Of a stretch of 64,000 nt of DNA, positions 7,101 to 64,000 are shown piece by piece. Position numbers and translations under genes: made by a program. The notes beneath the pieces are model-generated. The model worked only from the letters and a program-made list of their open reading frames with translations. It did not search any database and was not told the origin of the DNA. The DNA is from Arenicola marina. Lineage: Eukaryota; Annelida; Polychaeta; Arenicolidae. Position 1 is the first letter of the stretch. Each line of letters starts with the position of its first letter. The stretch lies in contig OZ025252.1 of assembly GCA_964019135.1 (NCBI GenBank), positions 43,588,156-43,652,155 on the forward strand, read 5' to 3'.

Positions 7101-10100
7101 CTGTAACGACACCCGGTATTACTGTACTACTGTAACGACACCCGGTATTACTGTATTATTGTAACGACACCCGGTATTACTGTACTACTGTAACGACACC
7201 CGGTATTACTGTACTACTGTAACGACACCCGGTATTACTGTATTACTGTAACGACACCCGGTATTACTGTATTGCTGTAACGACACCCGGTATTACTGTA
7301 CTACTGTAACGACACCCGGTATTACTGTACTACTGTAACGACACCCGGTATTACTGTATTACTGTAACGACACCCGGTATTACTGTACTACTGTAACGAC
7401 ACCCGGTATTACTGTACTACTGTAACGACACCCGGTATTACTGTACTACTGTAACGACACCCGGTATTACTGTACTACTGTAACGACACCCGGTATTACT
7501 GTATTATTGTAACGACACCCGGTATTACTGTATTATTGTAACGACACCCGGTATTACTGTACTACTGTAACGACACCCGGTATTACTGTATTATTGTAAC
7601 GACACCCGGTATTACTGTACTACTGTAACGACACCCGGTATTAATGTACTACTGTAACGACACCCGGTATTACTGTACTACTGTAACGACACCCGGTATT
7701 ACTGTGCTACTGTAACGACACCCGGTATTACTGTGCTACTGTAACGACACCCGGTATTACTGTACTACTGTAACGACACCCGGTATTACTGTATTACTGT
7801 AACGACACCCGGTATTACTGTACTACTGTAACGACACCCGGTATTACTGTATTACTGTAACGACACCCGGTATTACTGTACTACTGTAACGACACCCGGT
7901 ATTACTGTATTGCTGTAACGACACCCGGTATTACTGTACTACTGTAACGACACCCGGTATTACTGTACTACTGTAACGACACCCGTTATTACTGTACTAC
8001 TGTAACGACACCCGGTATTACTGTACTACTGTAACGACACCCGGTATTACTGTACTACTGTAACGACACCCGGTATTACTGTATTACTGTAACGACACCC
8101 GGTATTACTGTATTACTGTAACGACACCCGGTATTACTGTACTACTGTAACGACACCCGGTATTACTGTACTACTGTAACGACACCCGGTATTACTGTAC
8201 TACTGTAACGACACCCGGTATTACTGTACTACTGTAACGACACCCGGTATTACTGTACTACTGTAACGACACCCGGTATTACTGTACTACTGTAACGACA
8301 CCCGGTATTACTGTACTACTGTAACGACACCCGGTATTACTGTACTACTGTAACGACACCCGGTATTACTGTACTACTGTAACGACACCCGGTATTACTG
8401 TACTACTGTAACGACACCCGGTATTACTGTACTACTGTAACGACACCCGGTATTACTGTACTACTGTAACGACACCCGGTATTACTGTACTACTGTAACG
8501 ACACCCGGTATTACTGTACTACTGTAACGACACCCGGTATTACTGTACTACTGTAACGACACCCGGTATTACTGTATTACTGTAACGACACCCGGTATTA
8601 CTGTATTACTGTAACGACACCCGGTATTACTGTACTACTGTAACGACACCCGGTATTACTGTACTACTGTAACGACACCCGGTATTACTGTATTACTGTA
8701 ACGACACCCGGTATTACTGTATTACTGTAACGACACCCGGTATTACTGTACTACTGTAACGACACCCGGTATTACTGTACTACTGTAACGACACCCGGTA
8801 TTACTGTATTACTGTAACGACACCCGGTATTACTGTATTGCTGTAACGACACCCGGTATTACTGTACTACTGTAACGACACCCGGTATTACTGTACTACT
8901 GTAACGACACCCGGTATTACTGTATTGCTGTAACGACACCCGGTATTACTGTATTACTGTAACGACACCCGGTATTACTGTACTACTGTAACGACACCCG
9001 GTATTACTGTATTACTGTAACGACACCCGGTATTACTGTACTACTGTAACGACACCCGGTATTACTGTACTACTGTAACGACACCCGGTATTACTGTATT
9101 ACTGTAACGACACCCGGTATTACTGTATTGCTGTAACGACACCCGGTATTACTGTACTACTGTAACGACACCCGGTATTACTGTATTACTGTAACGACAC
9201 CCGGTATTACTGTACTACTGTAACGACACCCGGTATTACTGTATTACTGTAACGACACCCGGTATTACTGTATTGCTGTAACGACACCCGGTATTACTGT
9301 ATTACTGTAACGACACCCGGTATTACTGTATTACTGTAACGACACCCGGTATTACTGTACTACTGTAACGACACCCGGTATTACTGTATTACTGTAACGA
9401 CACCCGGTATTACTGTATTGCTGTAACGACACCCGGTATTACTGTATTACTGTAACGACACCCGGTATTACTGTATTACTGTAACGACACCCGGTATTAC
9501 TGTACTACTGTAACGACACCCGGTATTACTGTGCTACTGTAACGACACCCGGTATTACTGTACTACTGTAACGACACCCGGTATTACTGTACTACTGTAA
9601 CGACACCCGGTATTACTGTATTACTGTAACGACACCCGGTATTACTGTATTGCTGTAACGACACCCGGTATTACTGTATTACTGTAACGACACCCGGTAT
9701 TACTTTATTACTGTAACGACACCCGGTATTACTGTACTACTGTAACGACACCCGGTATTACTGTATTACTGTAACGACACCCGGTATTACTGTGCTACTG
9801 TAACGACACCCGGTATTACTGTATTACTGTAACGACACCCGGTATTACTGTATTACTGTATGACTGTCGTGGCCCCGCTTCCAGAGCGCCATCATCAGCA
9901 TGAACGTTGCGGAGGAGGTTCTGGCCAACCAGTTCGCCATGGACACCAGCCGCTGGCTCGTAGCAGGGGCTTCTAAGGTGAGGGATCACCGCCGTGTGAG
10001 GGGCAACTCCGTGGTCCGGTGGGTCACCCCGTGGTCTGGTGGGTCACCCCGTGGTCTGGTCTGGTAGGTCACCCCGTGGTCTGGTCTGGTAGGTCACCCC

Positions 10101-13100
10101 GTGGTCTGGTAGGTCACCCCGTGGTCTGGTCTGGTAGGTCACCCCGTGGTCTGGTCTGGTAGGTCACCCCGTGGTCTGGTAGGTAACCCCGTGGTCTGGT
10201 CTGGTAGGTCACCCCGTGGTCTGGTAGGTAACCCCGTGGTCTGGTCTGTTAGGTCACTCCGTGGTCTGGTGGGTCACTCCGTGGTCTGGTGTGTCACTCC
10301 GTGGTCTGGTGTGTCACTCCGTGGTCTGGTGGGTCACTCCGTGGTCTGGTGTGTCACTCCGTGGTCTGGTGTGTCACTCCGTGGTCTGGTGGGTCACTCC
10401 GTGGTCTGGTGGGTCACCCCGTGGTCTGGTGGGTCACCCCGTGGTCTGATGGGTCACTCCGTGGTTTGGTGGGTCACTCCGTGGTCTGGTGGGTCACCCC
10501 GTGGTCTGGTGGGTCACTCCGGGATCTGGTGTGTCACTCCGTGGTCTGGTAGGTCACTCCGTGGTTTGGTGGGTCACTCCGTGGTCTGGTGGGTCACCCC
10601 GTCGTTTGGTGGGTCACTCCGTCGTTTGGTGGGTCACTCCGTGGTCTGGTGAGCCACCCCGTGGTCTGGTGGGTCACCCCGTGGTCTGGTGGGTCACCCC
10701 GTGGTCTGGTAGGTCACCCCGTGGTCTGGTGGGTCACCCCGTGGTCTGGTGGGTCACCCCGTGGTTTGGTGGGTCACCCCGTGGTTGGGTGGGTCACCCC
10801 GTGGTCTGGTGGGTCACCCCGTGGTCTGGGGTGTCACCCCGTGGTCTGGTGGGCCACCCCATGGTCTGGTAAGTAGCGCGTTTGTTATCAAGTATCTTCT
10901 ATCATGCCAGCCCAAGCAGCAGGTGCGGGGTTCGAATCCCACATGTGCACATGCCTGTGTTGTGCAGGGTCACATCCCATGTGTTCTTCGCAAAGAGTAG
11001 CGGGTGACAACCGGAGATTTGGCTCCTCTCTTCCGTGATCCAGGTTAAAGCGCACCAGTCAAATGAAACGATCAACGGCGTCGTGCGGGGACATGTGGCG
11101 GCGTATCATAATGCCACCACTTGGCGGGCGATCCGAACTGTTCTCTTTCGGTGCCGTATGCCGTTGACATCACGTGGAACAGTGGTGCCCCATGGTGAAG
11201 AAATGATCAACCTTCGCTCTCCGGCAGAGGGCAGCATTTTACAATGTGCTACACGGAATACCGCCATGTGAAGCAAAGGGAGAAGACATCCCTCGTTCTG
11301 CGTACACTGTGGTGCTAGCGAACGGGTGGCTCTTACTAAAGCACGGATTGCAAGGAGTTAAAAATGCCTCTAATGTGTTCGTGTGTGTGTTTTGTTTGCA
11401 GCGTGGTTGGACAGCCTGGCTGGTCGCTTGCACTCAGCCGAGCAGGGTCATGGCGGTGGGGCCCATGGTGTACAGCCTCCTCAAACAGCAAGAAGTAAAG
11501 CAGGCATAGCTCATCATTAAATCTATCGTAGTGCATGCCCCATGCATGCACTCACCGCAGAGAGCGGGGAGGGGGTATCCACATGGTGCGTCGGCGGTAC
11601 GGCGGTTGGTCCTGGGCCTTCGAGCCTTATTGGAGGGAGAATATCACACAGTACCTGACGGATCCCAAGACACAGACAATGATGGCCTTCACAGATCCCT
11701 TCGGTGAGTATCAAGGGTACAGGATGCTCATTCAAATGCAGATTGTGTTGTGAGATAAACTTGCTGACATTATATTCTGCAACTGCATTTGGCTTTTTGA
11801 ACAGTAGGTAGCGCACTCCGGTATTGTGGAGTGTGCTCTGCTAGGCCAGTCCACGTGGCGCGCTCCGGTATTGTGGAGTGTGCTCTGCTGGGCCAGTCCA
11901 CGTGGCGCGCTCCGGTATTGTGGAGTACGCTCTGCTAGGCCAGACCACGTGGCGCGCTCCGGTATTGTGGAGTGTGCTCTGCTGGGCCAGTCCACGTGGC
12001 GCGCTCCGGTATTGTGGAGTGTGCTCTGCTAGGCCAGTCCACGTGGCGCGCTCCGGTATTGTGGAGTGTGCTCTGCTGGGCCAGTCCACGTGGCGCGCTC
12101 CGGTATTGTGGAGTACGCTCTGCTAGGCCAGACCACGTGGCGCGCTCCGGTATTGTGGAGTGTGCTCTGCTGGGCCAGTCCACGTGGCGCGCTCCGGTAT
12201 TGTGGAGTGTGCTCTGCTAGGCCAGTCCACGTGGCGCGCTCCGGTATTGTGGAGTGTGCTCTGCTAGACCAGTCCACGTGGCGCGCTCCGGTATTGTGGA
12301 GTGTGCTCTGCTGGGCCAGTCCACGTGGCGCGCTCCGGTATTGTGGAGTGTGCTCTGCTGGGCCAGTCCACGTGGCGCGCTCCGGTATTGTGGAGTGTGC
12401 TCTGCTGTGCCAGTCCACGTGGCGCGCTCAGGTATTGTGGGGTGTGTTCTGCTAGGCCAGACCACGTGGCGCGCTCCGGTATTGTGGAGTGTGCTCTGCT
12501 AGGCCAGTCCACGTGGCGCGCTCCGGTATTGTGGAGTGTGCTCTGCTAGGCCAGTCCACGTGGCGCGCTCCGGTATTGTGGAGTGTGCTCTGCTAGGCCA
12601 GTCCACGTGGCGCGCTCCGGTATTGTAGAGTGTGCTCTGCTAGGCCAGTCCACGTGGCGCGCTCCGGTATTGTGGAGTGTGCTCTGCTAGGCCAGTCCAC
12701 GTGGCGCGCTCAGGTATTGTGGAGTGTGCTCTGCTAGGCCAGTCCACGTGGCGCGCTCCGGTATTGTGGGGTGTGCTCTGCTGGGCAAGTTCACGTGGCG
12801 CGCTCCGGTATTGTGGAGTGTGCTCTGCTGGGCCAGTCCACGTGGCGCGCTCCGGTATTGTGGAGTGTGTTCTGCTAGGCCAGTCCACGTGACGCGCTCC
12901 GGTATTGTGGAGTGTGCTCTGCTGGGCCAGTCCACGTGGCGCGCTCAGGTATTGTGGAGTGTGCTCTGCTGGGCCAGTCCACGTGGCGCGCTCCGGTATT
13001 GTGGAGTGTGCTCTGCTAGGCCAGTCCACGTGGCGCGCTCCGGTATTGTAGAGTGTGCTCTGCTGGGCCAGTCCACGTGGCGCGCTCCGGTATTGTGGAG

Positions 13101-16100
13101 TGTGCTCTGCTAGGCCAGTCCACGTGACGCGCTCAGGTATTGTGGGGTGTGCTCTGCTGGGCCAGTCCACGTGGCGCGCTCCGGTATTGTAGAGTGGGCT
13201 CTGCTAGGCCAGTCCACGTGGCGCGCTCCGGTATTGTGGAGTGTGCTCTGCTAGGCCAGTCCACGTGACGCGCTCCGGTATTGTGGAGTGTGCTCTGCTA
13301 GGCCAGTCCACGTGACGCGCTCAGGTATTGTGGGGTGTGCTCTGCTGGGCCAGTCCACGTGACGCGCTCCGGTATTGTGGAGTGGGCTCTGCTAGGCCAG
13401 TCCACGTGACGCGCTCCGGTATTGTGGAGTGTGCTCTGCTATGCCAGTCCACGTGACGCGCTCAGGTATTGTGGGGTGTGCTCTGCTGGGCCAGTCCACG
13501 TGGCGCGCTCCGGTATTGTGGAGTGTGCTCTGCTGGGCCAGTCCACGTGGCGCGCTCCGGTATTGTGGAGTGTGTTCTGCTAGGCCAGTCCACGTGACGC
13601 GCTCCGGTATTGTGGAGTGTGCTCTGCTGGGCCAGTCCACGTGGCGCGCTCAGGTATTGTGGAGTGTGCTCTGCTGGGCCAGTCCACGTGGCGCGCTCCG
13701 GTATTGTGGAGTGTGCTCTGCTAGGCCAGTCCACGTGGCGCGCTCCGGTATTGTGAAGTGTGCTCTGCTGGGCCAGTCCACGTGGCGCGCTCCGGTATTG
13801 TGGAGTGTGCTCTGCTAGGCCAGTCCACGCGGCGCGCTCCGGTATTGTGGAGTGTGCTCTGCTGGGCCAGTCCACGTGGCGCGCTCCGGTATTGTGGAGT
13901 GTTTTCTGCTAGGCCAGTCCACGTGACGCGCTCCGGTATTGTGGAGTGTGCTCTGCTGGGCCAGTCCACGTGGCGCGCTCCGGTATTGTGGAGTGTGCTC
14001 TGCTAGGCCAGTCCACGTGACGCGCTCAGGTATTGTGGGGTGTGCTCTGCTGGGCCAGTCCACGTGACGCGCTCCGGTATTGTGGAGTGGGCTCTGCTAG
14101 GCCAGTCCACGTGACGCGCTCCGGTATTGTGGAGTGTGCTCTGCTATGCCAGTCCACGTGACGCGCTCAGGTATTGTGGGGTGTGCTCTGCTGGGCCAGT
14201 CCACGTGGCGCGCTCCGGTATTGTGGAGTGTGCTCTGCTGGGCCAGTCCACGTGGCGCGCTCCGGTATTGTGGAGTGTGCTCTGCTAGGCCAGTCCACGT
14301 GGCGCGCTCCGGTATTGTGGAGTGTGCTCTGCTAGGCCAGTCCACGTGGCGCGCTCCGGTATTGTGGAGTGTGCTCTGCTGGGCCAGTCCACGTGGCGCG
14401 CTCCGGTATTGTGGAGTGTGCTCTGCTAGGCCAGTCCCCGCGGCGCGCTCCGGTATTGTGGAGTGTGCTCTGCTGGGCCAGTCCACGTGGCGCGCTCCGG
14501 TATTGTGGAGTGTTTTCTGCTAGGCCAGTCCACGTGACGCGCTCCGGTATTGTGGAGTGTGCTCTGCTGGGCCAGTCCACGTGGCGCGCTCCGGTATTGT
14601 GGAGTGTGCTCTGCTAGGCCAGTCCAAGTGGCGCGCTCAGGTATTGTGGAGTGTGCTCTGCTGGGCCAGTCCACGTGGCGCGCTCCGGTATGGTGGATTG
14701 TGCTCTGCTAGGCCAGTCCACGTGGCGCGCTCCGGTATTGTGGAGTGTGCTCTGCTAGGCCAGTCCACGCGGCGCGCTCCGGTATTGTGGAGTGTGCTCT
14801 GCTGGGCCAGTCCACGTGGCGCGCTCCGGTATTGTGGAGTGTTTTCTGCTAGGCCAGTCCACGTGACGCGCTCCGGTATTGTGGAGTGTGCTCTGCTGGG
14901 CCAGTCCACGTGGCGCGCTCCGGTATTGTGGAGTGTGCTCTGCTAGGCCAGTCCACGTGGCGCGCTCCGGTATGGTGGATTGTGCTCTGCTAGGCCAGTC
15001 CACGTGGCGCGCTCCGGTATTGTGGAGTGCGCTCTGCTAGGCCAGTCCACGTGGCGCGCTCCGGTATTGTGGAGTGTGCTCTGCTAGGCCAGTCTACGTG
15101 GCGCGCTCCGGTATGGTGGATTGTGCTCTGCTAGGCCAGTCCACGTGGCGCGCTCCGGTATTGTGGAGTGTGCTCTGCTAGGCCAGTCCACGTGGCGCGC
15201 TCCGGTATTGTGGAGTGTGCTCTGCTAGGCCAGTCCACGTGGCGCGCTCCGGTATTGTGGAGTGTGCTCTGCTAGGCCAGTCCACGCGGCGCGCTCCGGT
15301 ATTGTGGAGTGTGCTCTGTTGGGCCAGTCCACGTGGCGCGCTCCGGTATTGTGGAGTGTTTTCTGCTAGGCCAGTCCACGTGACGCGCTCCGGTATTGTG
15401 GAGTGTGCTCTGCTGGGCCAGTCCACGTGGCGCGCTCCGGTATTGTGGAGTGTGCTCTGCTAGGCCAGTCCAAGTGGCGCGCTCAGGTATTGTGGAGTGT
15501 GCTCTGCTGGGCCAGTCCACGTGGCGCGCTCCGGTATGGTGGATTGTGCTCTGCTAGGCCAGTCCACGTGGCGCGCTCCGGTATTGTGGAGTGTGCTCTG
15601 CTAGGCCAGTCCACGCGGCGCGCTCCGGTATTGTGGAGTGTGCTCTGCTGGGCCAGTCCACGTGGCGCGCTCCGGTATTGTGGAGTGTTTTCTGCTAGGC
15701 CAGTCCACGTGACGCGCTCCGGTATTGTGGAGTGTGCTCTGCTGGGCCAGTCCACGTGGCGCGCTCCGGTATTGTGGAGTGTGCTCTGCTAGGCCAGTCC
15801 AAGTGGCGCGCTCAGGTATTGTGGAGTGTGCTCTGCTGGGCCAGTCCACGTGGCGCGCTCCGGTATGGTGGAGTGTGCTCTGCTAGGCTAGTCCACGTGG
15901 CGCGCTCCTTGTGGAGTGTGCTCTGCTAGGCCAGTCCACGTGGCGCGCTCCGGTATTGCGGAGTGTGCTCTGCTAGGCCAGTCCAAGTGGCGCACTCCGG
16001 TATTGTGGAGTGTGCTCTGCTAGGCCAGTCCACGTGGCGCGCTCCGGTATTGTGGAGTGTGCTCTGCTAGGCCAGTCCACGTGGTGCGCTCCGGTATTGT

Positions 16101-19100
16101 GGAGTGTGCTCTGCTAGGCCAGTCCACGTGGCGCGCTCCGGTATTGTGGAGTGTGCTCTGCTGGGCCAGTCCACGTGGCGCGCTCCGGTATTGTGGAGTG
16201 TGCTCTGCTAGACCAGTCCACGTGGCGCGCTCCGGTATTGTGGAGTGTGCTCTGCTGGGCCAGTCCACGTGGCGCGCACGAGGCTCGAAACCCTCCTGTG
16301 CAAACATATTCCATGCCTTTCTTCTCAAAGAGTAGTGGGACGTGGCTCCTCTCTGCCTTCTCAAAGAGTAGTGGGACATGGCTCCTCTCTGCCTTCTCAA
16401 AGAGTAGGGGGACATGGCTCCTCTCTGCCTTCTCAAAGAGTAGGGGGACATGGCTCCTCTCTGCTTTCTCAAAGAGTAGTGGGACTTGTCTCCTCTCTGT
16501 CTTCTCAAAGAATAGTGGGACATGGCTCCTCTCTGCCTTCTCAAAGAGTAGTGGGACATGGCTCCTCTCTGCCTTCTCAAAGAGTAGGGGGACATGGCTC
16601 CTCTCTGCCTTCTCAAAGAGTAGGGGGACATGGCTCCTCTCTGCCTTCTCAAAGAGTAGTGGGACTTGTCTCCTCTCTGTCTTCTCAAAGAATAGTGGGA
16701 CATGGCTCCTCTCTGCCTTCTCAAAGAGTAGGGGGACATGGCTCCTCTCTGCCTTCTCAAAGAGTAGTGGAACACCATCCTACCACCCCCGCGCTTTGTA
16801 CCATCTCGCCCGCGCTCATACCATCCTCTCGCCCCTGCGTTTTGCACCCTACCACCCGCGCACTTTGTACTCTCCCGCCCGCTCGCCTAGCACCCTCCCG
16901 CCCCGGCGTTTCGAACCCTCCGGCCCCCGGGCTTTGAGGCTTCCCTTCCTTTACTCCCCGTCGCCGACTCGCTTGCTGACCCCCACCCGCCACCACCAAT
17001 TATGCTTCTCTCGTTAAAGTATGATTCTACACAAAGTCCATTCAATAACTGATAAGTATCGTGTTGTAATTTGTATGATTGTTGAGACCGCACGATGCGA
17101 AACACTTCCGTAATTAAAATGCACCTTTAGTAAGTGTGCATAATTTGTAGCAAAGCGGCTAATGTAAGTTCTTCATTTATCATTTCAGTCTACCCCTCTA
17201 CTAACAATCAGTTGGGTCAGAGAAGTTGTGAGTACCCTGTTCCATGAAGCTCATTTTGTGTTCATTATTGTTGTTTGACTCCGTGAAACTAAAATATTGT
17301 TACAGTTGTTGGAGTATTATGACCCAGATATTAGATTGCCAGAATTGATTCAACGTCGAAGTCAAATAATTTATTCAGAACTGTTAAATTACCAGAGCTG
17401 TTAGATTAGAATGTCAGAGCTGTTATCGGAGCTGTTAAAAGTGTCAGAGCTGTTCGAATGTCAGAGCTGTTCGTATGTCAGAGCTGTCAGAAGGCCAGAG
17501 CTGTCAGAATGCCAGAGCTGTTCGAATGCCAGAGCTGTCAGAATGCCAGAGCTGTTCGAATGCCAGAGCTTTCAGAATGCCAGAGCTGTTAGATTACCAG
17601 CACTGTAATAACGTCAGTGGTTAGAACGCCAGAAAAGTTAGGTTGCCAGAGCTGTTGACTGGACGGTGGCCGTGTCCGTGTTGCCCTGTATGCAGAGTGA
17701 GGTTCACGGCACGATCGACCTGACAACCAACGTGGAGCCGTTGTTCATCACCGCCTACACGGCTGTCACCACAAACATGACTGGCCTCAGGTAAGTATGG
17801 CTCCATATGTCCCACCTACTATAGACCATATAGTCGACAAGTGAGGCGTTCATTAAGACGGAAATCTCGATTTTCGTCTTGTGTCGGTGTCTTCCGTTCT
17901 TCTGTGAGTCTGTCTGTTTGTCTGTCTGTCACGTTATCGACTTCCAAATTTACAAAAAGATGCGGAATGACCATCGTCAGGCTAAGTTCGTAGATGGACC
18001 ATGTAGGTCAAAGGTCAAGGTTACAGGAATTTTTCGAAATTTGCTTAACCATTGAAAGATAGGACTAAAAATTGGAAAAATCACTATAGCGTTCACATTT
18101 TTCACTTATTCACGCTCAAAATTATTTCACGTATTGGGCTTATAAGTACCTTGTATATAGTCTTGCAACTCGGTCAAATAGTTGTTCTGCAAAAAAATCC
18201 CAAACTTTAATTTTGGACCCTTTTGGCGGGAAATGGCATCCTCAATTTCTCCATGAGGGGGACACGTCAGACAAACGACACCTGGCGTCCAACATGCCAA
18301 CATGTTAGTATTTGGGCGCGAAGTATAATATTGATCAAGGTCACGCTTTCAAGGTCAAAGTCACGAAACATGTTTTCCAGCGTAAATATTTGATCTAGAG
18401 ATCCGCTGTATTTTTTTTAAGTATTCCTCAGAGAGAGGCGCAAACGCATTATTGACTTAGATTCTATCTCATACGAGTCATACATAGTTTTCGAGTTATT
18501 ATTAGATCAAATTTTTAATTTACGGAAAGTGCAAAAAATCGCGGTGACGATATGAATGCAGATAGATGACCCGTATGTGGTGGAATAGGTACCGATGTTA
18601 GTGACATCATGTGTGCCAAGTGGCATCGAAATCGAATCAGTAGTTTGGACGCTAGAAAATAATCACATTTTAACATGGCCAATCCCATCACAAAGCCTCG
18701 ACGTTTCGGCCTATAACCCGGTCAATATTGCATGTACATAGCCGCAGTCGGTACTAACATGTTCAATTTGCAACTATCACCCCGATTTTCGTCTTTCTTC
18801 TCAAGCTATGCTTGACAATGACTAATATATTCATCATTATTAGTATCCATCGTTATGAAACATCTTGGCTAGCTAAAGAGCTTGGGTTTAATTTGGTTTA
18901 TAAGGATTTGAGCAAGGCGGCGCGAATTGATGAACACAATGGGCGTGGTGAGAGCTGAAGATTCAAGTACTTCATGTTGGGTCATGCAAGGTCACGCATG
19001 TGGCACAGACATGGGGTAATCGTAATCAGTAATCGTAATCGATTGTAATCGATTACATGTTCCATGTAATCGTAATCGATTACATTGGTTTTAAAAGCAA

Positions 19101-22100
19101 TGTAATCGTAATCGATTACATTGCTAATGTAATCGTAATCAGGATTACTTTTGATGATTACTTCACAATGTTCACTCAGACTGTTTTAGTCTCCAAACTG
19201 AGCTTCACACTTTCTATCTCGTCAGTATCATAAGTGGAAACTGGCCACTGCAGTCCTACAGTAGAGACGCCCCCCCCCCCACCTCCCAACCACCCTTCGG
19301 CTCCTTCCTGCCCCATCCGAGACATAACCAGACATAATAATTAAGCCGGCTGGGTAAACGAAAGTAGACCCCTATTCTAATTCCATACTTATATTGTTTA
19401 CATTGGATAACTAGGGATGGTCCAGAGCCACCTGTGTTATTGGGAGTGGGTGGGTGGGGGCTTGATGGAATGGTATTAGATGCTTGTATTATTGTTCTCT
19501 GTATAGATGGATTAGAAGAGGTGTTGTTATAAAACGAACTTGACCGGGTTCAGTACTGGGGCGCGGCGACGTATGGTATAGATACCTCCCTCTATTACCT
19601 GCCATTTTACATAGAGACCATAAGTTGTGTTACGCAACATACCTCCTTCTAAGGAAGATAAGAATAAATCCAGTGGATCTGTATCAAAAATATATAATGT
19701 TAATAACCTTTATAGTTAGGATTTGATTCATTAAGATTATTTAAATAACTTATGATCGAGGGTTGTTCTTCACCAAGTGATTACCGTGGGTTGTAACCCT
19801 CATTAAATATGCTCAACAATTGCTCCCGTTGGAAATTAAATGCACAGCCCTATGATCAGAAATCTGCCGCTCTCGTGCAGGGATGTAGCCTCGCTATTCC
19901 AATGTTCGCTTTTTGTGGAAATATCTACTTAAAGGTCTAATTCAGAGCCCATATATGAAAACACATAGAAATTAATCATGATTATAATCATGATTACTTT
20001 CAATGTAATCGTAATCGATTACTTTCATATTTCCTGTAATCGTAATCGTAATCGATTACATTTACAATGTAATCACCCCATGCCTGATGTGGCATACTTG
20101 TATAGTAAAGGGAAACATTCCATGTTAGAGCCCACGCGAGAGTATTATTGTAGTAAATGGCATGCGTGAGTGAGGCGTGAGCTATGCTGAAACAATGGAT
20201 CGCACTCACATGGAAGAACAACCATATTAAACTTCGAAAACGGTTCCTTTACTTAGATCTCTGTGAGACTTACTGGGCTAAGTCTATAAGGGCAGTCGCG
20301 TAATACTGGGTGCATTTCTTTGGGCCAGGACCGATATCTAGTCCGGTACCTCCTATCACACGGATCGTATCGATAGCGATTCACCACTTTCGTTCACGTC
20401 CAGTGCACTGAAACCAACCTAGTCTTTTCAATCAGCCGCCTTCTTTTCCCGAATGCCCCATGTGGTTTGAGCGGTAAACAATCAGCATGCCTATTGAATG
20501 CGCGCGCATCCAACCCCTGCGAAACATGTGTCGGGGGTACACCGATGCACGTATTCGGGTTACCTGAGGGACATACCGGGCTACCAAAGAAATGGGCCCA
20601 TTGTGTCACAATTGCGTCCATCCCGGTATCTTTTATTCAGGAATGACTTTCGCCGACTGGTTGGAGCAGACCCGGAACCAAAGAAATGTTTCTGGTACCC
20701 TGACGCAGTACAAGACCTCGTAAGTGTCCTTCCTGTGTTAGACATTACCATGATAATCACAGGAGACTCAGTAAGTGCTTATATTTTCAAAGAACAATGT
20801 AACATACGTCCGAAAAGGATTAATTGAAAACTGTTTCTACGTACTTTTACAACCAATTTTAACACGAAATTGAAAGGGAGCATGGATTTCTCTCGAGAAG
20901 TTAAAGTTGGAACTGAAAAAAAATTCGAAGCAAAATGTTCACCTCTCGTTATTTATTCACGCGAGTAGAGAGGTAAGTGAACCTGAAGCGCTTCTACCGG
21001 TGAACAATATGTGAACAGTTTATGATTCATGACCACATTTTAAGGAGACTTATAAAGTTAGTAGACTGCCGAGAAGTAAAGTTTATAATGATATTATGTG
21101 ATATTAATCTCTGACAGATCGCGCTATGGAGACAATAATTCGTCTAGGGATCGACTTAGTTGCCAGTATTGTGTTGCACCCGATCTTTGCAGGGAGGACT
21201 TCGATACAGGGCCCAGTACACTATGCCCGAAGATGGCTGGTTTGGTTTCTTTATATCGGTAAGAAGGACCTTCTAAACAGTGTAATCCGGAACTCAGTAC
21301 TTTTTTGCCAAAAGATTTCGACCTATGTATACAGTGCATCTTCTCACAAGAGATCTCAAATTTAACAGTGCATCTTAGGTTTCAAATGGGGGGCTCCCGA
21401 TTAAGCCCCCTGGATGCCACTAGATGGCAGCACAACTCATCAGCTAACTACGAATAGGCTCACTAGATGGCGTTACTTTATGCATGTTGTGCGGGCGACA
21501 GCACCGACCATATCGTGGTAGCAAGCCCAGTGGCGGATCTAGGGGGGGGGGGGGTTAGGGGGGTTGCAACCCTCCCCCCCTTGGGAACCAGAACATACAA
21601 CATACATGTTAACATACATGTTAAAGTCCCAAGTCTTCAGAGAGCAGCCCCCCCCCCCTTGGAAAACTGAACATACACTGTTAAAGTCGGGTTCCCCCCC
21701 GGTCACAGGTCTTCAGAGCAAAATTGACTGTTAATGTCGGCTTCTCCGAGCACGCCCTCCCCACCCCCACCCCCGGTCGGAAGTTTTTCAGAGAGCACAC
21801 CCCTCGGTCGGAAGTTTTCAGAGAGCCCCCCCCCCCCCTTGGCAAATTCCTAGATCCACCCCTAAATTTAAGCGACCAGCTATGTTTAGAAAAAAATTCC
21901 ATCATAGCTGGTAGGTTAAGGTGAGAAGTACTCATCTCTGAAACTGACAAGAAAGTGACATTCTGCTTCAATTGTCGGACTTGTTACATACAGGTCGGAC
22001 ATGACGCACGTAAAAACTTTTTTCGCCACACGATTGGATGAAAGCAACAGTGACGTCAATGAATGATTGAGAGCCTAGAACGATCTAGTTGTCAACCAAT

Positions 22101-48285: not shown

Positions 48286-49184
48286 TCAACAGCAGTTGTT
48301 CACCGGATCAATGCAACGACTATGTTTTTCACTCCATGAATATCCGTACTTCAGAAAGTCCATTTTATATTTATCTAAAGACTCCTGAAAGAGGTCTGGA
48401 GCATCTTCCTGCAGGTCGGCCAACAGTTCGTCATACTTAAAGGCGGGACTGAGGTGGTCACTGGCGATGGCACTGGCATTGAAGTTGTGGTTAGGATGGT
48501 GCTGCCGTAACCTGTGATTACGCGTCCAATCGAGTTCCTCCTTCAGTTGTGCAAAGTCCACATCAATCGTCTCCGCCTTCAGAATATAGTCGTATTTAAC
48601 TTGACAAGCGTAGCACGAGTCTTCGTAGTCCATCCAGTGATAATTCGACATACTGGCATGTTGGACACGGCGTTCTAGAAAGTCCCGGATGTCGGTAATT
48701 CCCCTGCCGATGACGTGTCTTCCGGTGACCACCAGCTCGTAGTAGGCGGACACCAGACGTTGTAATGGATGGCGCACGATGACCATTTTCCGGTAGTCGG
48801 CGTAGCGTGACAGCACTTCCTGGAGAGGGATTCGCGTGATCATGTGATAACCGGAAGCAGTGTCTGGATACGGCATCCTGGTGGAGTTGTAGCTCCAGAC
48901 GTCCATCTTACCGGCCGTCTCATTATTCATGCCAGAAAACAGGCGGATAGCGGATTTACTGCCGACTTTGTTGATCCTGCAGTAGAGAACGCGCTCCTCG
49001 TCGTTAACTATGACGGCGCCGAGGGTCGGTAGTGCGTCATATCCGGTGAGGTTTCCCATTGGTCGACCGCCCTGACATGCCTGGGCAAGCACGCGCCTCC
49101 TCGCCGCGAACGAACAGACGTCGAGTTCCCGGTTCCTTTCTGCCGATGTGTTACCCACACACACCGTCATATGGCGGGACTGCA
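48286..49184 (-). CDS. sulfotransferase exon 2 with catalytic domain
   Basis: Contains the whole lumenal domain and both PAPS-binding motifs. The acceptor is ATTTCATTTCAG (AG at 49186-49185). The open frame upstream of 49184 is intron. The terminal residues SRCIDPVNNCC are cysteine-rich. Confidence 0.9.
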
Positions 49185-49568
49185 CTGAAATGAAATATAA
49201 CATAACTACCTTGTAACATACTTGTGTCACTATCTTTATGGAGTATTGGGCATGCTTTCCAAGAATATTTCTTGGAATAATACTCTTGGGAGCGATTAAA
49301 CACGAATCCATTGGTCCCATCGAGACCTTCGCTGTGTTGCCATGGTCATTTGGTCAACCGGAGCAGACTGTTAATTAGTTCTCAGATGTTCTACACAAGA
49401 CTAGTTCCTTTCTTGGCGAGCAATGCGCGTAGACGGAAGGACGTACTTACCCTGTTGGAGGCTGTCTGGCTGGCTGTAAGGATTCAGACTCCAGCTGACG
49501 AGTAAAGTGCCGACGATGGTGAGCGCCAGGCAGACCAGAAGTACCGAGGAGCTACTCACCTTCACCAT
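48286..49568 (-). CDS. carbohydrate sulfotransferase (CHST8-14-like, Sulfotransfer_2), two exons
   Basis: Exon 1 is 49568-49451 and exon 2 is 49184-48286, joined in phase 1 (CAACAGG|GTAAGT to TTTCAG|TGCAG); total 338 residues. It is predicted to transfer sulfate from PAPS to sugar hydroxyls of glycoproteins or glycosaminoglycans in the Golgi. Residues about 7-29 form a type II signal anchor (LLVCLALTIVGTLLV). The 5'-phosphosulfate-binding loop is at about 108-121 (CRINKVGSKSAIRL) and the 3'-phosphate-binding motif at 173-187 (MVIVRHPLQRLVSAY). Later come YHWMDY, C-x-x-C and YDYILKAET. Five N-glycosylation sequons. The length is typical for the CHST8-14 group. The start uses ACCATGG, a strong context. 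Acceptor sugar specificity cannot be told. Confidence 0.93.
49451..49568 (-). CDS. sulfotransferase exon 1
   Basis: Encodes the cytosolic tip and membrane anchor, MVKVSSSSVLLVCLALTIVG onward to SLQQ. Donor GTAAGT at 49450-49445. Confidence 0.88.
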
Positions 49569-49623
49569 GGTAACGCTTGGGCTTTTGCCGCGGGGTGGGT
49601 GTGGCTCAGCGTACGAAGCGCTT

Positions 49624-57406: not shown

Positions 57407-57423
57407 CATTCTCAGCATACATG

Positions 57424-57665
57424 ACCGGTGTAGCATGATAACCTGTCCGCCGTGATAAAGTGTCCGGCTGACGTGCGCGCATGCGCAACGAATGGATTTG
57501 CTATGTAAATAGCACATTTTTGTTAGGTTTAGGGTTAGGTTATGGTTAGGTTAGGGTCAGGGTTAGGGTTAAGGTTAGGATTAGTGTTCTGGTTAGGGTT
57601 AGTGACATGAAAGAAGCCTGGCCGGACAGGTTATCACGGCCGGACAGGTTATTATGTTACACCGG
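57424..57665. mobile_element. MITE-like element with telomere-like core
   Basis: Arms CCGGTGTAGCATGATAACCT (left) and the inverse of AGGTTATTATGTTACACCGG (right). The motif CCGGACAGGTTATCACGG appears in both arms. The centre (57527-57603) is a run of TTAGGG/TTAGGTT-type repeats in the + orientation. About 242 bp. Confidence 0.65.
57527..57603 (+). repeat. interstitial degenerate telomere-like repeat
   Basis: GTTAGGTTTAGGGTTAGGTT and further TTAGGG variants over about 77 bp. It is centred inside an inverted-repeat element. Confidence 0.85.
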
Positions 57666-58134
57666 GTTGGACTCGAAATTGTCAGTATACATCAACACGG
57701 TTCATCGCCGAGTGCAGACACGCCGCCAGCTAGAGGTGCATGGAGGAAGCAGCGATAGAGGGCGGTCCTATCGGGCGACACCTCCGACAGCGGAACTTGG
57801 CAGACGAGGGCTTCGGCATTCTAAAATAAGATGGTTTTATTTTGTCGTGTCCTTGCTTAAGAGTGCCATGTGATAGACGAATGGACCAGGCCGTATTAAC
57901 AGCGTAATTGACAAGGCGGGCATTAACCACAATATGTGTACACTAAGACACATATTTACTGGGTACTTGTTACTATTGCATGCCGCATAACAGTAATCTG
58001 CAACATAGTGAAACCCTGTTGTTCCTTCGTGGGAGCGAATTTCCTCAGCAGCAGCAGCAGCAGCAGCAGATGTCAAGATCAGGCCCCACGCGGGCACAAC
58101 TCCTACGCCGGCCGCCATTTGTGCTGCCCGGCAG

Positions 58135-58230
58135 CAATGAATATTGATGAAGCGTGACGCGCTGGTGACGTAACATTTATGAATATTAATGTCGAGATTT
58201 TCTGGCGAATTTAAGGCGCACCCACCCGGC
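58135..58230. repeat. right arm of the 95-bp inverted repeat pair
   Basis: ATGAATATTGATGAAGC and CTGGTGACGTAAC, then TCTGGCGAATTTAAGGCGCA; reverse complement of 55026-55119. It ends 5 bp before a DR1 motif of the dehydrogenase promoter. Confidence 0.85.
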
Positions 58231-58234
58231 CCGG

Positions 58235-58247
58235 AGGTGAGGGGTCA
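58235..58247 (+). promoter_or_regulatory. DR1 nuclear-receptor site upstream of the dehydrogenase
   Basis: AGGTGA-G-GGGTCA: two direct half-sites fitting RGKTSA with a 1-bp spacer, 91 bp upstream of the start codon. DR1 sites bind RXR heterodimers, RAR, PPAR or HNF4-type receptors. Occupancy is not shown. Confidence 0.5.
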
Positions 58248-58337
58248 AATGTCAGTCCTCAGATAACAACACTGTGCAGGACCAGCGTGCTGACTCACTC
58301 ACAGCGAGCAGCGGGACTGTTAAACTTGGATTTCGCC

Positions 58338-58393
58338 ATGCTGAAGACATCGTTTGTTGTCTTGGTGTTGGGGCTAGGTCTCTACTTCCTGAG
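58338..58393 (+). CDS. dehydrogenase exon 1 (membrane anchor)
   Basis: TTTCGCCATGC start, 18 codons plus two bases; donor AG|GTAGGC at 58394. The string GATTTCGCCATGCTGA at the start codon recurs in the intron 5 array. Confidence 0.85.
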
Positions 58394-61300
58394 GTAGGCC
58401 TACGTTTAGTTTGGCACTGGGCCTGGCAGAAAGCAAGTCGCACTCAATGTTACTATTTCTTCGCACCATTATGGTTTAACGTTTATTGTTTGTGGTAATG
58501 AGTGTGTGCGTGTGTTGCACGGGGGTGTAAGAGGGGTGGGGGGGGGGGTGAACGATTTCTCACGAATGAAAACCTTTCACCCTGTGAATAGGATTGGGTT
58601 CCGATGACATTTGTGCAACAGCTTGGTTTCGGAATAGGGGTGCATAATGCGACCAGGTTAGCCCCGTAACATGGCCCACCGGCTGCAGTGTCCCGTGGTT
58701 ACAGAGCCTCGATCGTAGATAGGTTATATATACAATACATAACTGTGGTATACATGCATGAGTGGACCTGGGCCGTGCCACTGTCGTTGTGCGTCTATGA
58801 CACACCGTTATAGATCGTTATATTTATGTATATCCGCAGATATATATATATATCAATGTATCTGTCTGTGTGTGTGTAAAGGTTACACACACACGTTGAT
58901 GTCAGGTTGATGAAAAAAACGGGACCCGGCCCGGGGCCCGACTCTGTGAGACGCGAGCTCTTGTTGACATTGTAGCTGGCTCACGTGGGGGCTAAATAAA
59001 GACTCGACTAAAGCCCAAATAGTAAAGCGGGGCGGAGGGGTTGGGAGGGCGGCAAATGGGCTTGAGTCTGGATGTATAATATCTCGAGGTCAGAGGTTAG
59101 ATATGTTATCCCAAGCCATGCCAATTAAGTTTAGAGCATGTCGGTCCGGACATCAGCTGATAGTCCCTTGAACTGTGGCCAACTTACTGATGGCGACTTG
59201 CCGAAGGTTCGGGCGACACAATTAGTGTATGGAAAGCCGTTTGTCATGCTAGTTGTTGCAGTGTCAAGCGTAGCTCTCAATACGCAAAAACGCAAAAGGT
59301 AATCGGCGTCGACAACCAAAAAAAAAAGCGATAAAAAACGTTATTGTCTGTAAATAGTGTCACAAATAGTGGCTTTCCGATACACGGCGCAGTATATTAC
59401 TCAATGACTTAATACTTATTGTAAAAAAAGACACATATAAAGTCAATATCCACCCAAAATTGGCCAAAATGTACTCTATTAGGTCATAAATAATTAAATT
59501 ATCTACTCTACAAAACTTACGGATGTATTACTCAAACGTTAGCACTAGATTTACACTTCGCATTATACTTTAAATTTATGAGTTTATCGGCGCCGCGACT
59601 GTTTCCGTTCTCCCTGACATACTCGCGTCCAAAGTCGCTCCCCATAAACGGACGGCCACCCATCGGCGTCACATAAACTCTTGAAACCAAAGTTTCATAA
59701 AGAAAATTATGGATTAGAAACTGATTTCAAGCAGTTGTGTGACCTGGATGACCACAATATTTCATTAGGCAAACCCTCTCGGCGATTAAACCGTAAGAAG
59801 GAGGTGGTGTACACATAAATTGGTGGGTTGATACCTAATCCAAATTGCATTGAAGAGGGCATCCTCTTTTGTACATGCATATGTATATACCATTGCTATA
59901 CTATAGCTATTCCATGTCGTCTATCCACTACATTTGTTAAAAAAATAAGCACAACACATCCATGTGTCCTTCCATTAGATACTGTTTTAGTTGCAATAGG
60001 TAGCAAAAAGGGATCAAAATTAAAATTTTAGCCAGCGCAATTTTGAATGTATCAGGATCACTCTGCTCTTTAGAACTGCGAAATGACTTTGAAATTATCA
60101 TTGCAGGAGACACCAAAATGGCTGCGAATACACGAAAGACACCAGGATCGATGGGAAAGTTGTCATAGTAACGGGTGCTAATACGGGAATCGGCAAAGAG
60201 ACGGCCAAGGATTTGGCTCTCAGAGGTAGGTGACTTCTGGTAGGGAGGCAGGGTAAGTGATGAGCAACGGAGGTGTTTCGGATTGTATCACCTACCAAGT
60301 TGTGGTGTCTTGACTGTCATTGACGTCATATGACTGTCATTGACGTCATGTGACTGTCATTGACGTCATGTGACTGTCATTGACGTCATGTGATTGTCAT
60401 TGACTTCCTATGATTGTCATTGACGTCATGTGATTGTCATTGACGTCATGTGATTGTCATTGACGTCATATGATTGACATTAATGCCATGTGATTGTCAT
60501 TGACGTCATATGACTGTCAGTGACGTCATGACTGTCAGTGACGTCATATGACTTTCATTGACGTCATATGACTGTCATTGACGTCATGTGATTGCCATTG
60601 ACGTCATATTATTGACATTATTGTCATATTATTCACATTAATGTCATATGACTGTCATTGACGTCATGTGATTGTCATTGACGTCATATGATTGTCATTG
60701 ATATCATGTGATTGTCATTGACGTCATATGACTGTCAGTGACGTCATATGGTTGTCAGTAACGTCATACGACTGTCAGTAAGGTCATATGATTGTCATTG
60801 ACCTAAACCTGACGTTACTTTCTTTTAGTGTTGCATTTATGTCATCTACTTCATTGATGTTATATACATTGATAGTTAATTTATAGCTTCAGGGGCCAGG
60901 GCCACTAAAATAAAAATGTTCTCCATATAAGTAAAAAGTTATACTGACGTTATGCTTTTTCATTAATATGTTTATTTAAGCTATGTTGTCATTACAAAAT
61001 GTTTGATCGCTATATCAAGACTCATGCCTCAATTACTAAATGCAGTCAATTGACCCTTTTGTGTGTTGACGCCTACTAACTGCAGGGCGTTTACCCTTTA
61101 TGGGCATTGATACCCCTACTAACTGCAGTGGTTAAATCCTTTCCCTCTCTTGAAACCCTTACTTATTGCAGGGCGTTTACCCTTTATGGGCATTGATACC
61201 CCTACTAACTGCCCGGGGTTATTCTGTTATTCTGTAGTCTGTCTGATGTCACAACTTGCTGTACGATTATGGAAATTAACCCTTTACATGTGTTGATATA

Positions 61301-64000
61301 CCTACTATGTGCATGGCATTAACCCTTTGTATGTCTTGATACCCCTACTAACTGCAGGGAGGTGACCCTTTCTGTTTGTTGACACCCCAAAGTACAGGGA
61401 GTTAAACCTTTACGTGTGTTGATATACCTACTCTGTGCATGGCGTTAACACTTTTTGTGTGTTGACACCTCAGGTGGCAAGGTATACATGGCATGTCGTT
61501 CCATCGAGAGAGGCCAGGGGGCGCTGAATGACATCCTGACGGAGACTGGCATCGCCAAGGACAAGCTAGTGGTCTTACAACTGGACCTCAGCTCGTTTGA
61601 CTCCGTCAGAAAGTTTGCCCAAGAGTTTAATGAAAGTACGATCAATTGTGAATTTATAACATATATAGCATGCATTATGGAATCACCCAATTTATTTAAT
61701 ATATAGCTTTACATTATAGTGATCACTGATATTCTTGCCGATATAAATGCCGACAGGCATCAAGCATTTGCAATATATCTACAGACATAATATCTACATT
61801 GATTTCTTATTATTATCACATTATATATTAATGCAGCGTGAAGTATCGAAGACGCCTCGAGCGCTATCTGCCGTAGGTTCACATAGTTCGGCTGAAGAGT
61901 CACAGATCTTGTGTATAGTTTATGCTCGGTTTCTGAGTTGTTTTTCATAGGGATCCTTAAAGACTTCACATAACAGCACCAGTCGATATCTTTAACAGGC
62001 GATCCACTGGATATTCTATCCAGAAAGTCTTGTAACAAAGACAACTTGTATTTGTTCTACACGCAGGAGAGAAGAAGCTGGACCTCCTTGTCAACAACGC
62101 GGCGGTGTGGCCCCCTGAAAAAAGAACTGTCACCAATGACGGCTTGGAGATTGCCTTCGCTACAAACCACCTCGGTGAGTGGATGGGAAGGGGGGGGGGG
62201 GTCTACTCTATTGTAACATACGTCTTGGAGAAAGGAACAGTTTGTAGTTTACAAACACACATCTTCGAACAGATGGAGTTTTTCTCAAGAGAAATACTAA
62301 AGATAGTTTGTTAAAGATAATCGATACGCATGATATGATTAATGTTAATGTTAAGTAGATGTGTATGAAGCCAATCTCAATATCATCGTATTTGCTAATA
62401 GAAAGAAAAAAAGATTAATAGCGCAACGATTGGGCCAAATTGATATATTATATAGATTGTTGTATTGCTGTTCCTGTTTGCATTTGTCCTAGGGTTTTTT
62501 CGTAATTTGTTTCTTCTTATTTTGAGTGCTTAAGACTTGGCCTCTGCTCATTGCCAACCGGTTTTTGTATTATTGCCTGATTTGTGTTTTACGGCACTAA
62601 AGCTTATTAGTAGTAAAAGGACAAGATTCGATCGAATTGTAGACCATGAAGGTGAGGTCAACGATTCTATCGTTATGAAATCCTTTCTCTCGCTTAACAT
62701 GCAGCGTCCACAACAACGGCATTTCCTGGCACGAGCAGCAGAGAGCGCTCATGGCTGCTGATTACTTGCAGGTCACTTCCTGTTGACCCATCTCCTGGCG
62801 GAGCGCCTCCTAGCGGCGTCCCCGAGCCGGGTCATCAACGTTTCGGGTAAGCTGTACCAGTACGCTCCGCTCAAGTTTGACGATCTGATGGGGGAGAAGG
62901 AGTACTCACCCATGTACGCCTACAGCCAGAGTAAGACAGCCAACAACCTCTTCACAGGGGAGCTTGCGAGACGGATCCAAGGTGAGACTTCCCGCCCCTA
63001 GCGGCGTATCCAGGGTGAGACTTCCCGCCCCTAGTGGCGTATCCAGGCGTAAGCGCTACATTAAGGAACGTCATTACACATTAGTGTAGGGGGGGGGGGG
63101 GCGGCGGGGGGGGGAACCCCCTCTGAATGGCGAATCCCCACGAATTAGGACATTTTAAAGCTGGGCGCGAATAAAAAAAAAGCCTTAGTGGTGATATCGC
63201 GTATATCGACGAATTCGCGGCTATTATAACGGACCGCCGTAACTAGGGAAAGAGTCTTCGCGTTGTACCAGGAATTATACGGATAGCGATCGCCAAAAGA
63301 TGCCAACAGCTGATCGCGAATCTCCAAGAATTCCTGGATGCCAATCGCGGATATCGGGGTATCCCCCCGCATGATTCTGGAGGGAAGCTTCGGTGATAAT
63401 AAAGTACTCGATATTTAGCAACACTGCTTATTATTTCGGCTTGATGGAAGGCACTGGGGTGGTTTAATACGTGATTTCGCCATGCTGACAGGCACTGGAG
63501 TGGCCTGGTACGTTATTTCGCCTTGATAAAAAACTTTAGAGTGTTTGAATAGGTGATTTCGCCATGCTGACAGGCACTGGAGTGGCCTGGTACGTTATTT
63601 CGCCTTGATAAAAAACTTTAGAGTGTTTGAATAGGAGATTTCGCCATGATGCTAGGCACTGGTTTGGTTTCATACGTGATTTCGCCATGATGATAGACAC
63701 TGAATTGGTTTAGTAATGCATTTATTTCCATTGTACTACAGGGGCCTCGGGCCCATTGTACAAAGCAAGCAACAGAGTAAGCATACATCACATTATTATA
63801 AATTATATTAACCCAAATTCTGAACATGAACCTGGTAAGTAACGTCTGCGTAAGACACAAAACAAAACAAAAATAATGGTTTACTAAGTGATTTCGCCAT
63901 GGTGACAGGTTCTGGAGTGACCAGCTACAGCTTGCACCCTGGGGTGATAAACACAGAGCTTCTGCGTCACATCGTCAACCACCCGCTGATTGCTTCTATC
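58338..64000 (+). CDS. retinol dehydrogenase-like SDR (RDH11-14 group), six exons, 3' end outside
   Basis: Exons 58338-58393, 60107-60225, 61474-61635, 62067-62174, 62772-62981 and 63909-64000 (edge). All junctions are GT-AG with matching phases (2, then 1 throughout). The product is an NADP(H)-type classical short-chain dehydrogenase, likely retinol/retinal or related oxidoreductase at the ER membrane. Residues 1-18 are a hydrophobic anchor ([18 protein letters not shown]). Then come [12 protein letters not shown] (cofactor loop), MACRS (Arg favouring NADP), [21 protein letters not shown] (NNAA instead of the usual NNAG), INVSG (catalytic Ser), YSQSK (catalytic Tyr and Lys) and [12 protein letters not shown]. 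About 249 residues are visible; the family usually has 300-340. Substrate is inferred. Confidence 0.93.
58396..60106. other. dehydrogenase intron 1, nothing else recognised
   Basis: AT-rich towards the 3' half, with TATATATATATATATC near 58840 and a TGTGTGTG/ACACACAC pair near 58870-58900 that could form a hairpin. No array or gene is seen. Confidence 0.5.
60107..60225 (+). CDS. dehydrogenase exon 2 (cofactor loop)
   Basis: Arg codon completed across the junction, then [20 protein letters not shown] and [19 protein letters not shown]. Acceptor TTGCAG (60106), donor GAG|GTAGGT. Confidence 0.92.
60305..60805. repeat. 20-bp intronic array with about 17 perfect CRE sites
   Basis: About 24 copies of TGACGTCATATGACTGTCAT and variants in intron 2, starting about 80 bp after exon 2. 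By eye 17 units keep the full palindrome TGACGTCA (CREB/ATF site). The spacing is almost exactly 20 bp, near two helical turns. Confidence 0.95.
61030..61473 (+). repeat. degenerate 42-50 bp array of 3' splice-site-like units
   Basis: About nine copies of a unit like GGCGTTAACCCTTT, TGTGTTGATACCCC, TACTAACTGCAG. Four copies have TACTAAC (perfect branch-point consensus) immediately before TGCAG or TGCCC. The last unit, GGCGTTAACACTTTTTGTGT then GTTGACACCTCAG, is the authentic acceptor of exon 3. Confidence 0.85.
61474..61635 (+). CDS. dehydrogenase exon 3
   Basis: Encodes [19 protein letters not shown], then [19 protein letters not shown] and QEFNE. Acceptor CTCAG (61473), donor A|GTACGA. Phase 1 on both sides. 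Confidence 0.92.
61636..62066. other. dehydrogenase intron 3, nothing recognised
   Basis: AT-rich intron ending in CTACACGCAG. No repeat array. Confidence 0.5.
62067..62174 (+). CDS. dehydrogenase exon 4
   Basis: Encodes [17 protein letters not shown], then [15 protein letters not shown]; donor CTCG|GTGAGT. NNAA replaces the common NNAG; N-H-L-G is conserved. Confidence 0.92.
62175..62771. other. dehydrogenase intron 4, nothing recognised
   Basis: Contains a poly-G tract just after the donor (62190-62200) and AT-rich unique sequence. Confidence 0.5.
62772..62981 (+). CDS. dehydrogenase exon 5 (catalytic Ser and Tyr-x3-Lys)
   Basis: Encodes [40 protein letters not shown] and [20 protein letters not shown]. 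Acceptor CTTGCAG, donor CCAAG|GTGAGA. The donor region is tandemly duplicated (33 bp) downstream. Confidence 0.93.
62974..63045 (+). repeat. 33-bp tandem duplication of the exon 5 donor
   Basis: ATCCAAGGTGAGACTTCCCG and ATCCAGGGTGAGACTTCCCG, each followed by CCCCTAG(C/T)GGCGT, then a third partial ATCCAGGCGTAAG. Use of the second donor would keep an in-frame TAG. Confidence 0.9.
63425..63716 (+). repeat. 41-bp intronic array resembling the exon 6 acceptor
   Basis: Seven copies of about 41 bp, e.g. GTGATTTCGCCATGCTGACA then GGCACTGGAGTGGCC. The authentic exon 6 boundary reads GTGATTTCGCCATGGTGACA|G followed by GTTCTGGAGTGACC, so each unit copies the exon 6 3' splice site. Confidence 0.9.
63717..63865 (-). 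mobile_element. LINE 3'-end fragment
   Basis: On - , TGTACAATGGGCCCGAGGCC then CCTGTAGTACAATGGAAATAAATGC-like sequence. It shares the palindromic GGGCCTCGGGCC core with the LINE tail at 55570-55750. It separates the array from the exon 6 acceptor. Confidence 0.45.
63909..64000 (+). CDS. dehydrogenase exon 6 (runs off the window)
   Basis: Encodes [20 protein letters not shown] and [10 protein letters not shown] up to the edge. The acceptor is GTGACAG (63908). PGVI-x-TEL matches the loop after the catalytic helix in RDH11-14. Confidence 0.92.

Follow-up and report, generated by a model that had tools for sequence, protein, structure and literature searches.

The window, a 64,000-nucleotide stretch of Arenicola marina DNA on contig C5 of an 867-Mb assembly, carries on its forward strand a gene matching PF10142, which we take to be PqaA-like, and a short-chain dehydrogenase gene (Table 1). 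The initial annotation had called exons in these two genes, and we found those exons to be genuine, with continuous frames after splicing. Exons X2, X3 and X4 of the PF10142 gene (at 9885, 11402 and about 11565) join in frame and match PF10142 at E 3.1e-24, and the six dehydrogenase exons form a 303-aa open frame that matches PF00106 at E 9.6e-31. Exon X5 was not recognisable within 11707-17650 of the PF10142 copy and its flanking exons are open; because of this missing exon, the copy may be a decaying or diverged gene. A sulfotransferase gene (PF03567, E 2.6e-24) lies on the minus strand at 48300-49569, with arrays at neither of its two tested junctions.

Two minor features accompany the dehydrogenase. 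Interstitial telomere-like GTTAGG repeats lie at 57522-57602, and a 16-mer, GATTTCGCCATGNTGA, is found at the start codon (58329-58344). It is found again within the array at the exon 6 acceptor and at that acceptor itself (63473-63905), with 6 matches at up to two mismatches against a mean of 0.07 in shuffles.

Table 1. Exons and arrays of the window, followed by junction-crossing arrays outside it (positions are those of the window)
Feature	Position	Strand	Unit	Copies	Remark
Exon X2, PF10142 (PhoPQ-related/PqaA-like) gene	9885-9977	+			X2+X3+X4 splice in frame; PF10142 match
Minisatellite	10009-10870	+	20 bp	42	31 bp past donor 9977; no junction copy
Minisatellite	17376-17656 (TRF rows 17376-17408, 17429-17656)	+	17 bp		crosses acceptor, 7 nt into exon X7
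Exon X7, PF10142 gene	17650-17790	+			by reading the sequence
Exons X8, X9, PF10142 gene	20641-20719, 21193-21258	+			assigned by order and reading
Exon X10, PF10142 gene	22425-22547	+			peptide matches homologous exons of paralogues
Short-chain dehydrogenase exon 1	58338-58393	+			splices into open frame; PF00106 match
Short-chain dehydrogenase exon 2	60107-60225	+			splices into open frame; PF00106 match
Minisatellite	61072-61465 (TRF rows 61072-61212, 61276-61465)	+	43 bp		ends 8 bp short of acceptor 61474
Short-chain dehydrogenase exon 3	61474-61635	+			splices into open frame; PF00106 match
Short-chain dehydrogenase exon 4	62067-62174	+			splices into open frame; PF00106 match
Short-chain dehydrogenase exon 5	62772-62981	+			splices into open frame; PF00106 match
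Duplication	62975-63047	+	33 bp	2.2	spans exon 5 donor (62981)
Minisatellite	63433-63712	+	41/82 bp		units copy exon 6 acceptor
Short-chain dehydrogenase exon 6	63909-64000	+			runs past window end; splices into open frame; PF00106 match
C7 gene (B), X4 donor			40 bp	251 units over 10.2 kb	unit is exon tail plus donor
C7 gene (B), X0 donor			38 bp	15
L045, X1 donor			52 bp	at least 136 units	array reaches end of stretch examined
A1, X8 donor			73 bp	16	about 51 nt of exon included
A1, X0 donor			lag 52	1
L051, X1 donor			86 bp	3
L007, X3 acceptor			64 bp	13
L025, X4 acceptor			79 bp	4
L025, X3 acceptor			46 bp	6
L046, X3 acceptor			42 bp	6

Arrays of the window and the junctions beside them

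Tandem Repeats Finder (TRF) recovered all five minisatellites of the initial annotation at about the coordinates first given. Junction copies were sought with an 80-mer centred on each junction (40 bases each side), compared ungapped with the adjoining intron at lags of 10-1500; the null was the score that each query reached in other loci. A score of 15 was never reached by chance (0/400 random points compared with other contigs), and some per-junction nulls exceed 15 because of paralogous sequence in the other loci. Three of the 27 catalogued window junctions have true junction copies, scoring 17.0, 35.5 and 32.0 against own nulls of 10.0, 10.0 and 7.5. The proposal that the repeat units include the adjacent splice site thus holds for the acceptor at 17650, the donor at 62981 and the acceptor at 63909, and fails this test for the arrays beginning at 10005 and 61030.

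The units at acceptor 17650 include CCAG/AGCTGTT, with 7 exon bases; CAGAGCT occurs 12 times, the authentic copy counted, and AG is intact in 14 of the 15 units. Donor 62981 has a copy at a 33-bp lag, with 10 exon bases within an imperfect match, while copies of acceptor 63909 lie 335 and 417 bp upstream and take in up to 20 nt of exon 6. At donor 9977 the junction-copy test failed: the array at 10005-10872, described as donor-like and starting at this donor, has a 20-bp unit that resembles a donor (P = 0.11 against dinucleotide shuffles) and holds no junction copy. Motif counts in 10009-10870 are 21 for GTGGGT, 10 for GTAGGT, 0 for GTGAGT and 1 for GTAAGT. The array at 61030-61473, read as a branch point plus acceptor that ends in the acceptor of exon 61474, adjoins that acceptor with 43-bp units that carry no exon bases, and the test failed here as well. 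AG is present in these units and TGCAG and CTAAC motifs in some, and acceptor-likeness against shuffles gives P = 0.09 for 61072-61212 and 0.36 for 61276-61465. A 9-bp-based array (TCCACGCCC) at 1199-2271 starts about 5 bases past the X0 donor (1194/1195), also without a junction copy.

Junction copies across the PF10142 family

The PF10142 genes are expanded in this genome and mainly clustered on C5; 33 exon matches with E no higher than 0.001, 30 of them with loci, lie on contigs C3, C5 and C7. Further stretches were taken around many of these loci, where junctions could be fixed because exon positions are conserved among the paralogues. The resulting catalogue holds 138 junctions (70 donors and 68 acceptors); the PF10142 genes contribute 126 of them, the dehydrogenase 10 and the sulfotransferase 2. 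At a score of at least 15, junction-crossing copies were detected at 13/138 junctions, seven donors and six acceptors. Outside the window, 10/98 non-redundant junctions have them, two near-duplicate loci being left out. The own-query null flagged 12 of the first 100 junctions, including two marginal donors, L010 X5 (11.5 against a null of 10.5) and L025 X3 (6.5), both of which we left out of the strong set. For the 38 later junctions the score threshold decided, and the three that passed also beat a null of the own-query type.

Both donors and acceptors are amplified, and the splice dinucleotides are intact in nearly all copies. The most extreme array, at the X4 donor of the C7 gene (B), keeps GT in 248/251 units and the whole nine-base donor window in 207/251; the X4-X5 intron that holds it measures 10,690 bp, against 364-1,766 bp in seven other measured paralogue introns. 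At the L045 X1 donor, GT is intact in 134/136 units and the nine-base donor in 120/136. Extra copies per junction array number mostly from 1 to 16, with hundreds in two.

One gene on C3, L025 (C3:46485078-46488170), has arrays at three of its six visible junctions plus an array that copies the end of the preceding exon, and one of its units, AAGGTCAGTCCGAGTC, is barely more than a donor site. Two L025 arrays are real on reading and stand outside the 13: a 16-bp repeat with only 3 exon bases at the X2 donor, and an X1 donor array with 16 matches to GGCYAAGGTAG whose authentic exon lies beyond the stretch examined.

Artefactual arrays created by the assembly, or unreal exons, are in our view extremely improbable. 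Assembly of long arrays is difficult, and the window copy without a recognisable X5 would fit such a reading, but the spliced frames are continuous, the Pfam matches are strong, unit variants differ along the arrays, and the pattern recurs on C3, C5 and C7.

Origin, turnover and placement of the arrays

The units of the junction arrays are local tandem duplications of a segment straddling an exon-intron boundary. The exon is the source of the copies, since the conserved peptide is encoded at the equivalent position in paralogues that lack the arrays. A genome-wide search with two unit-holding stretches, representing 2/13 arrays, found matches only at their own locus or, for the dehydrogenase, its tandem paralogue among the best candidates scored, with very common words skipped; these matches speak against a dispersed introner-like element carrying splice sites. 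Births of junction arrays are recurrent, and at one homologous acceptor, X3, they are independent. The arrays there have units of 64, 46 and 42 bp in L007, L025 and L046, matching about 23, 17 and 11 exon bases, and their independence follows from these differences in unit length and exon extent and from the differing intron sequence.

Arrays also turn over between paralogues. A tandem paralogue of the dehydrogenase lies 17 kb downstream of the window copy, and its exon 6 array has 44-bp units with 97% matches, as against the imperfect 41/82-bp units of the window. The 33-bp duplication of the exon 5 donor is present in the window copy and absent from the paralogue, and a 20-bp intronic array of the pair has 24.7 copies in the window and 2.7 in the paralogue. 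Turnover is fast, as these differences in period, copy number and donor duplication reveal.

Contact between arrays and junctions must often arise by chance, because TRF arrays cover so much of the sequence: 35% of a 104-kb region around the window, and 4-84% in 15 other stretches. Coverage profiles over the first 100 junctions revealed no peak at the junction and a steady fall toward it, from 33/88 at 1.49 kb through about 25% at 100-300 bases to 10/100 at the junction and 0/100 at 45-90 bases inside the exon. On 125 non-redundant junctions, coverage was 13/125, about four-fold lower than at background points (384/883). Array edges behave differently, in that they fell within -45 to +60 of 27/124 junctions, against 62/500 random points (odds ratio 2.0, P = 0.01). 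Positions already inside arrays were excluded from this comparison. Its background points keep a distance of 200 bp or more from any catalogued junction and may include uncatalogued exons. The excess persists outside the window (20/97, P = 0.04), and bootstrapping by gene gives an edge rate of 12.7-32.2% against the background of 12.4%. A cruder estimate of the excess, 27 entries in 10.5 kb versus a rate of 0.73 per kb, exceeded three-fold and fell to two-fold on a like-for-like background.

Purely uniform placement is not a perfect fit, since edges are about two-fold enriched near junctions. The initial annotation had proposed that amplification is seeded or retained at splice sites; the edges lend this weak support, and the coverage, about four-fold below background, speaks against it. 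The edge excess is modest, in a sample drawn mostly from the single family PF10142, and could reflect arrays spreading until an exon halts them, or mild seeding. That minisatellites arise preferentially at splice sites, for example through duplication coupled to transcription or the spliceosome, is in our judgement rather unlikely. Such a preference would fit the edge excess, the three independent births at X3, the different unit lengths at the X0 donor in two paralogues and at the X1 donor in three, and the concentration of arrays in L025, which has four, three of them at its six visible junctions. Against it stand the low coverage and missing peak, an edge excess that stems largely from a single gene family and could represent arrays stopped by exons, and the ability of slippage or unequal exchange to account for the units without any special process.

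Decoy sites and comparison with known systems

The copies form rows of decoy splice sites, and the suggestion that these buffer or modulate splicing is unsupported by their predicted consequences. In 12/13 arrays, every counted decoy would shift the frame or add a stop; the sole exception is the L046 X3 acceptor array, where 6/6 decoys would give in-frame, open insertions. Nearest-decoy insert lengths are divisible by three in 2/13 arrays, which is no excess, and the spliced frames stay open when the authentic sites are used.

Comparison of splice-like units on the sense and antisense strands gave a split result. An excess on the sense strand appeared in the 14 gene-body arrays that touch junctions (donor-like 5 versus 2, acceptor-like 4 versus 0), as expected if those units copy the junction. 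The 32 non-redundant gene-body arrays off junctions had no such excess at a stricter threshold (donor 3 versus 2, acceptor 1 versus 1). A looser shuffle test of 104 arrays more than 60 bp from catalogued junctions had returned 17 versus 3 for donors and 11 versus 5 for acceptors, and a second run 18 versus 1 for donors. This off-junction excess was rejected, as it vanished at the stricter threshold with non-redundant arrays and donor scores compared in pairs did not differ significantly (P = 0.14). Several of the off-junction hits proved to be junction arrays of uncatalogued exons (the L025 X1 and X2 donors and the A1 X8 donor).

Preferential conservation of the splice signals had no consistent sign in the 8 of 13 arrays ranked: donor windows rank 7 of 40, 2 of 52 and 32 of 86 within their units, and acceptor windows 36 of 64, 79 of 79, 12 of 46, 16 of 42 and 10 of 17. 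The ranks of 7 of 40 and 2 of 52, from the two largest arrays, give a weak hint of constraint.

We regard it as very unlikely that the copies act, whether by buffering the authentic site against mutation, tuning alternative splicing or binding U1 snRNP along the intron. The nearly complete retention of decoy dinucleotides in the two largest arrays and the in-frame decoys of L046 would suit such a role, as would the human gene ABCA7, where the length of an intronic VNTR is described as correlating with exon 19 skipping (PMC5954066). Intact dinucleotides equally fit young, homogenised arrays, however, and close paralogues differ freely in their arrays; the frame-breaking decoys, the missing sense-strand excess off junctions and the inconsistent conservation of splice signals also argue against a role. 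The broader proposition, that junctions are preferred for minisatellite birth in this lineage, perhaps coupled to transcription or splicing, and that rows of seemingly functional decoys in a sizeable share of introns set the rate of splicing or buffer the junction, appears quite unlikely.

The splice-junction arrays probably arose by ordinary tandem duplication, in sequence rich in minisatellites and under exon constraint. Minisatellite birth, by replication slippage or unequal exchange, would act nearly everywhere in sequence of which arrays already make up about a third or more, and selection would remove duplications within exon bodies. Duplications straddling a junction may survive because the intact exon end stays put and exon definition would favour the exon-proximal site. 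A decoy, if used, would in most cases lead to a frame shift or stop and then to transcript decay, and the extra sites would need no function. We infer that exon definition makes the arrays tolerable. Exon constraint is not absolute, since the A1 X8 donor array repeats about 51 exon bases, and the arrays of L025 look clustered, which counts against this explanation. The sequence data call for no function of the arrays, which look like a by-product that a repeat-rich genome tolerates.

The initial annotation knew of no named system of this kind, but precedents exist in the "mirages" of amphioxus and in the ABCA7 VNTR. Mirages are described in the amphioxus Adh3 and globin genes (BflGb6 and BflGb9), where splicing is seemingly normal (PMC3087553), and in PGBD5 and troponin C (PMC3902484); the Adh3 case is known to us as cited in these two papers. 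As described there, they are minisatellite-like tandem duplications across an exon-intron boundary, at a donor or an acceptor, often with AG or GT kept, as in Arenicola. By structure, the splice-junction minisatellites reported here are likewise mirages: the unit spans the exon-intron boundary, either end is amplified, and AG or GT is kept. The amphioxus units are given as 10-72 bp in Adh3 to 150-160 bp in the globins (PMC3087553, PMC3902484), and the globin haplotypes as having 6 and 3 units, whereas arrays here reach 251. Splicing is reported as checked by RT-PCR in amphioxus; the present arrays were read from genomic sequence. Further differences are the annelid host, the occurrence of several arrays in one gene and the measured frequency (13/138 junctions).

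The ABCA7 VNTR, in intron 18, is described as having a 25-bp unit whose first two bases are the donor GT of exon 18, with 23.7 units in the reference, and a decoy donor one unit along yields an out-of-frame transcript at about 2% (PMC5954066). It thus forms a row of decoy donors, as here; unlike here, its unit opens at GT, with no exon sequence in the published description, and it is a single case from a disease-association study. Among annelids, earthworm metallothionein intron 1 likewise has large minisatellites, though the unit is not described as holding a splice junction in that account (PMC12783039), and an abalone intron minisatellite is not described as spanning one in its source (PMC6905558). 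No splice-junction minisatellite of an annelid or other protostome appeared among the matches listed from the open-access literature. The arrays are a known type of structure in a new group and suggest that mirages occur outside the chordates too.

Tandem repeats at exon-intron boundaries are also described in human segmental duplications, and intron gain by tandem duplication in Drosophila (PMC2812944, PMC2891723). Like the arrays here, these cases involve minisatellite expansion or tandem duplication of a splice motif; as described, they result in an intron or exon that is new or altered, whereas here the checked intron positions are old and the copies intronic. It is highly improbable that the Arenicola arrays are intermediates of intron gain or sliding by tandem duplication (the Rogers model) that make new exons or introns, even with the same model proposed for the amphioxus globin mirages (PMC3087553) and for some Drosophila introns (PMC2891723). 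The PF10142 introns with arrays at X0, X1, X3, X4 and X8 are older than the arrays, because their positions are shared with array-free paralogues, and no new intron was identified among the positions checked.

The C7 intron, where the donor region has been copied about 250 times and the nine-base donor is complete in 207 of the copies, amounts to a natural experiment on splice-site choice by the spliceosome. The findings suggest that mirages may be a general consequence of minisatellite-rich genomes, and they serve as a warning for gene predictors, which may meet an exon end in many copies within an intron.

By its mitochondrial code and gene order the source is very probably an annelid, and an amphioxus origin was rejected on this evidence. 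The mitochondrion of the assembly is contig C762 (15,942 bp); table 5, with AAA as K and AGA as S, gives a good reading of its COX1. Its genes lie on one strand in the order cox1-cox2-cox3-nad6-cob-atp6-nad5-nad4L-nad4-rRNAs-nad1-nad3-nad2, with those besides cox1 named by eye and the rRNAs placed from a gap containing tRNA-Val, and this order matches the annelid ground pattern.
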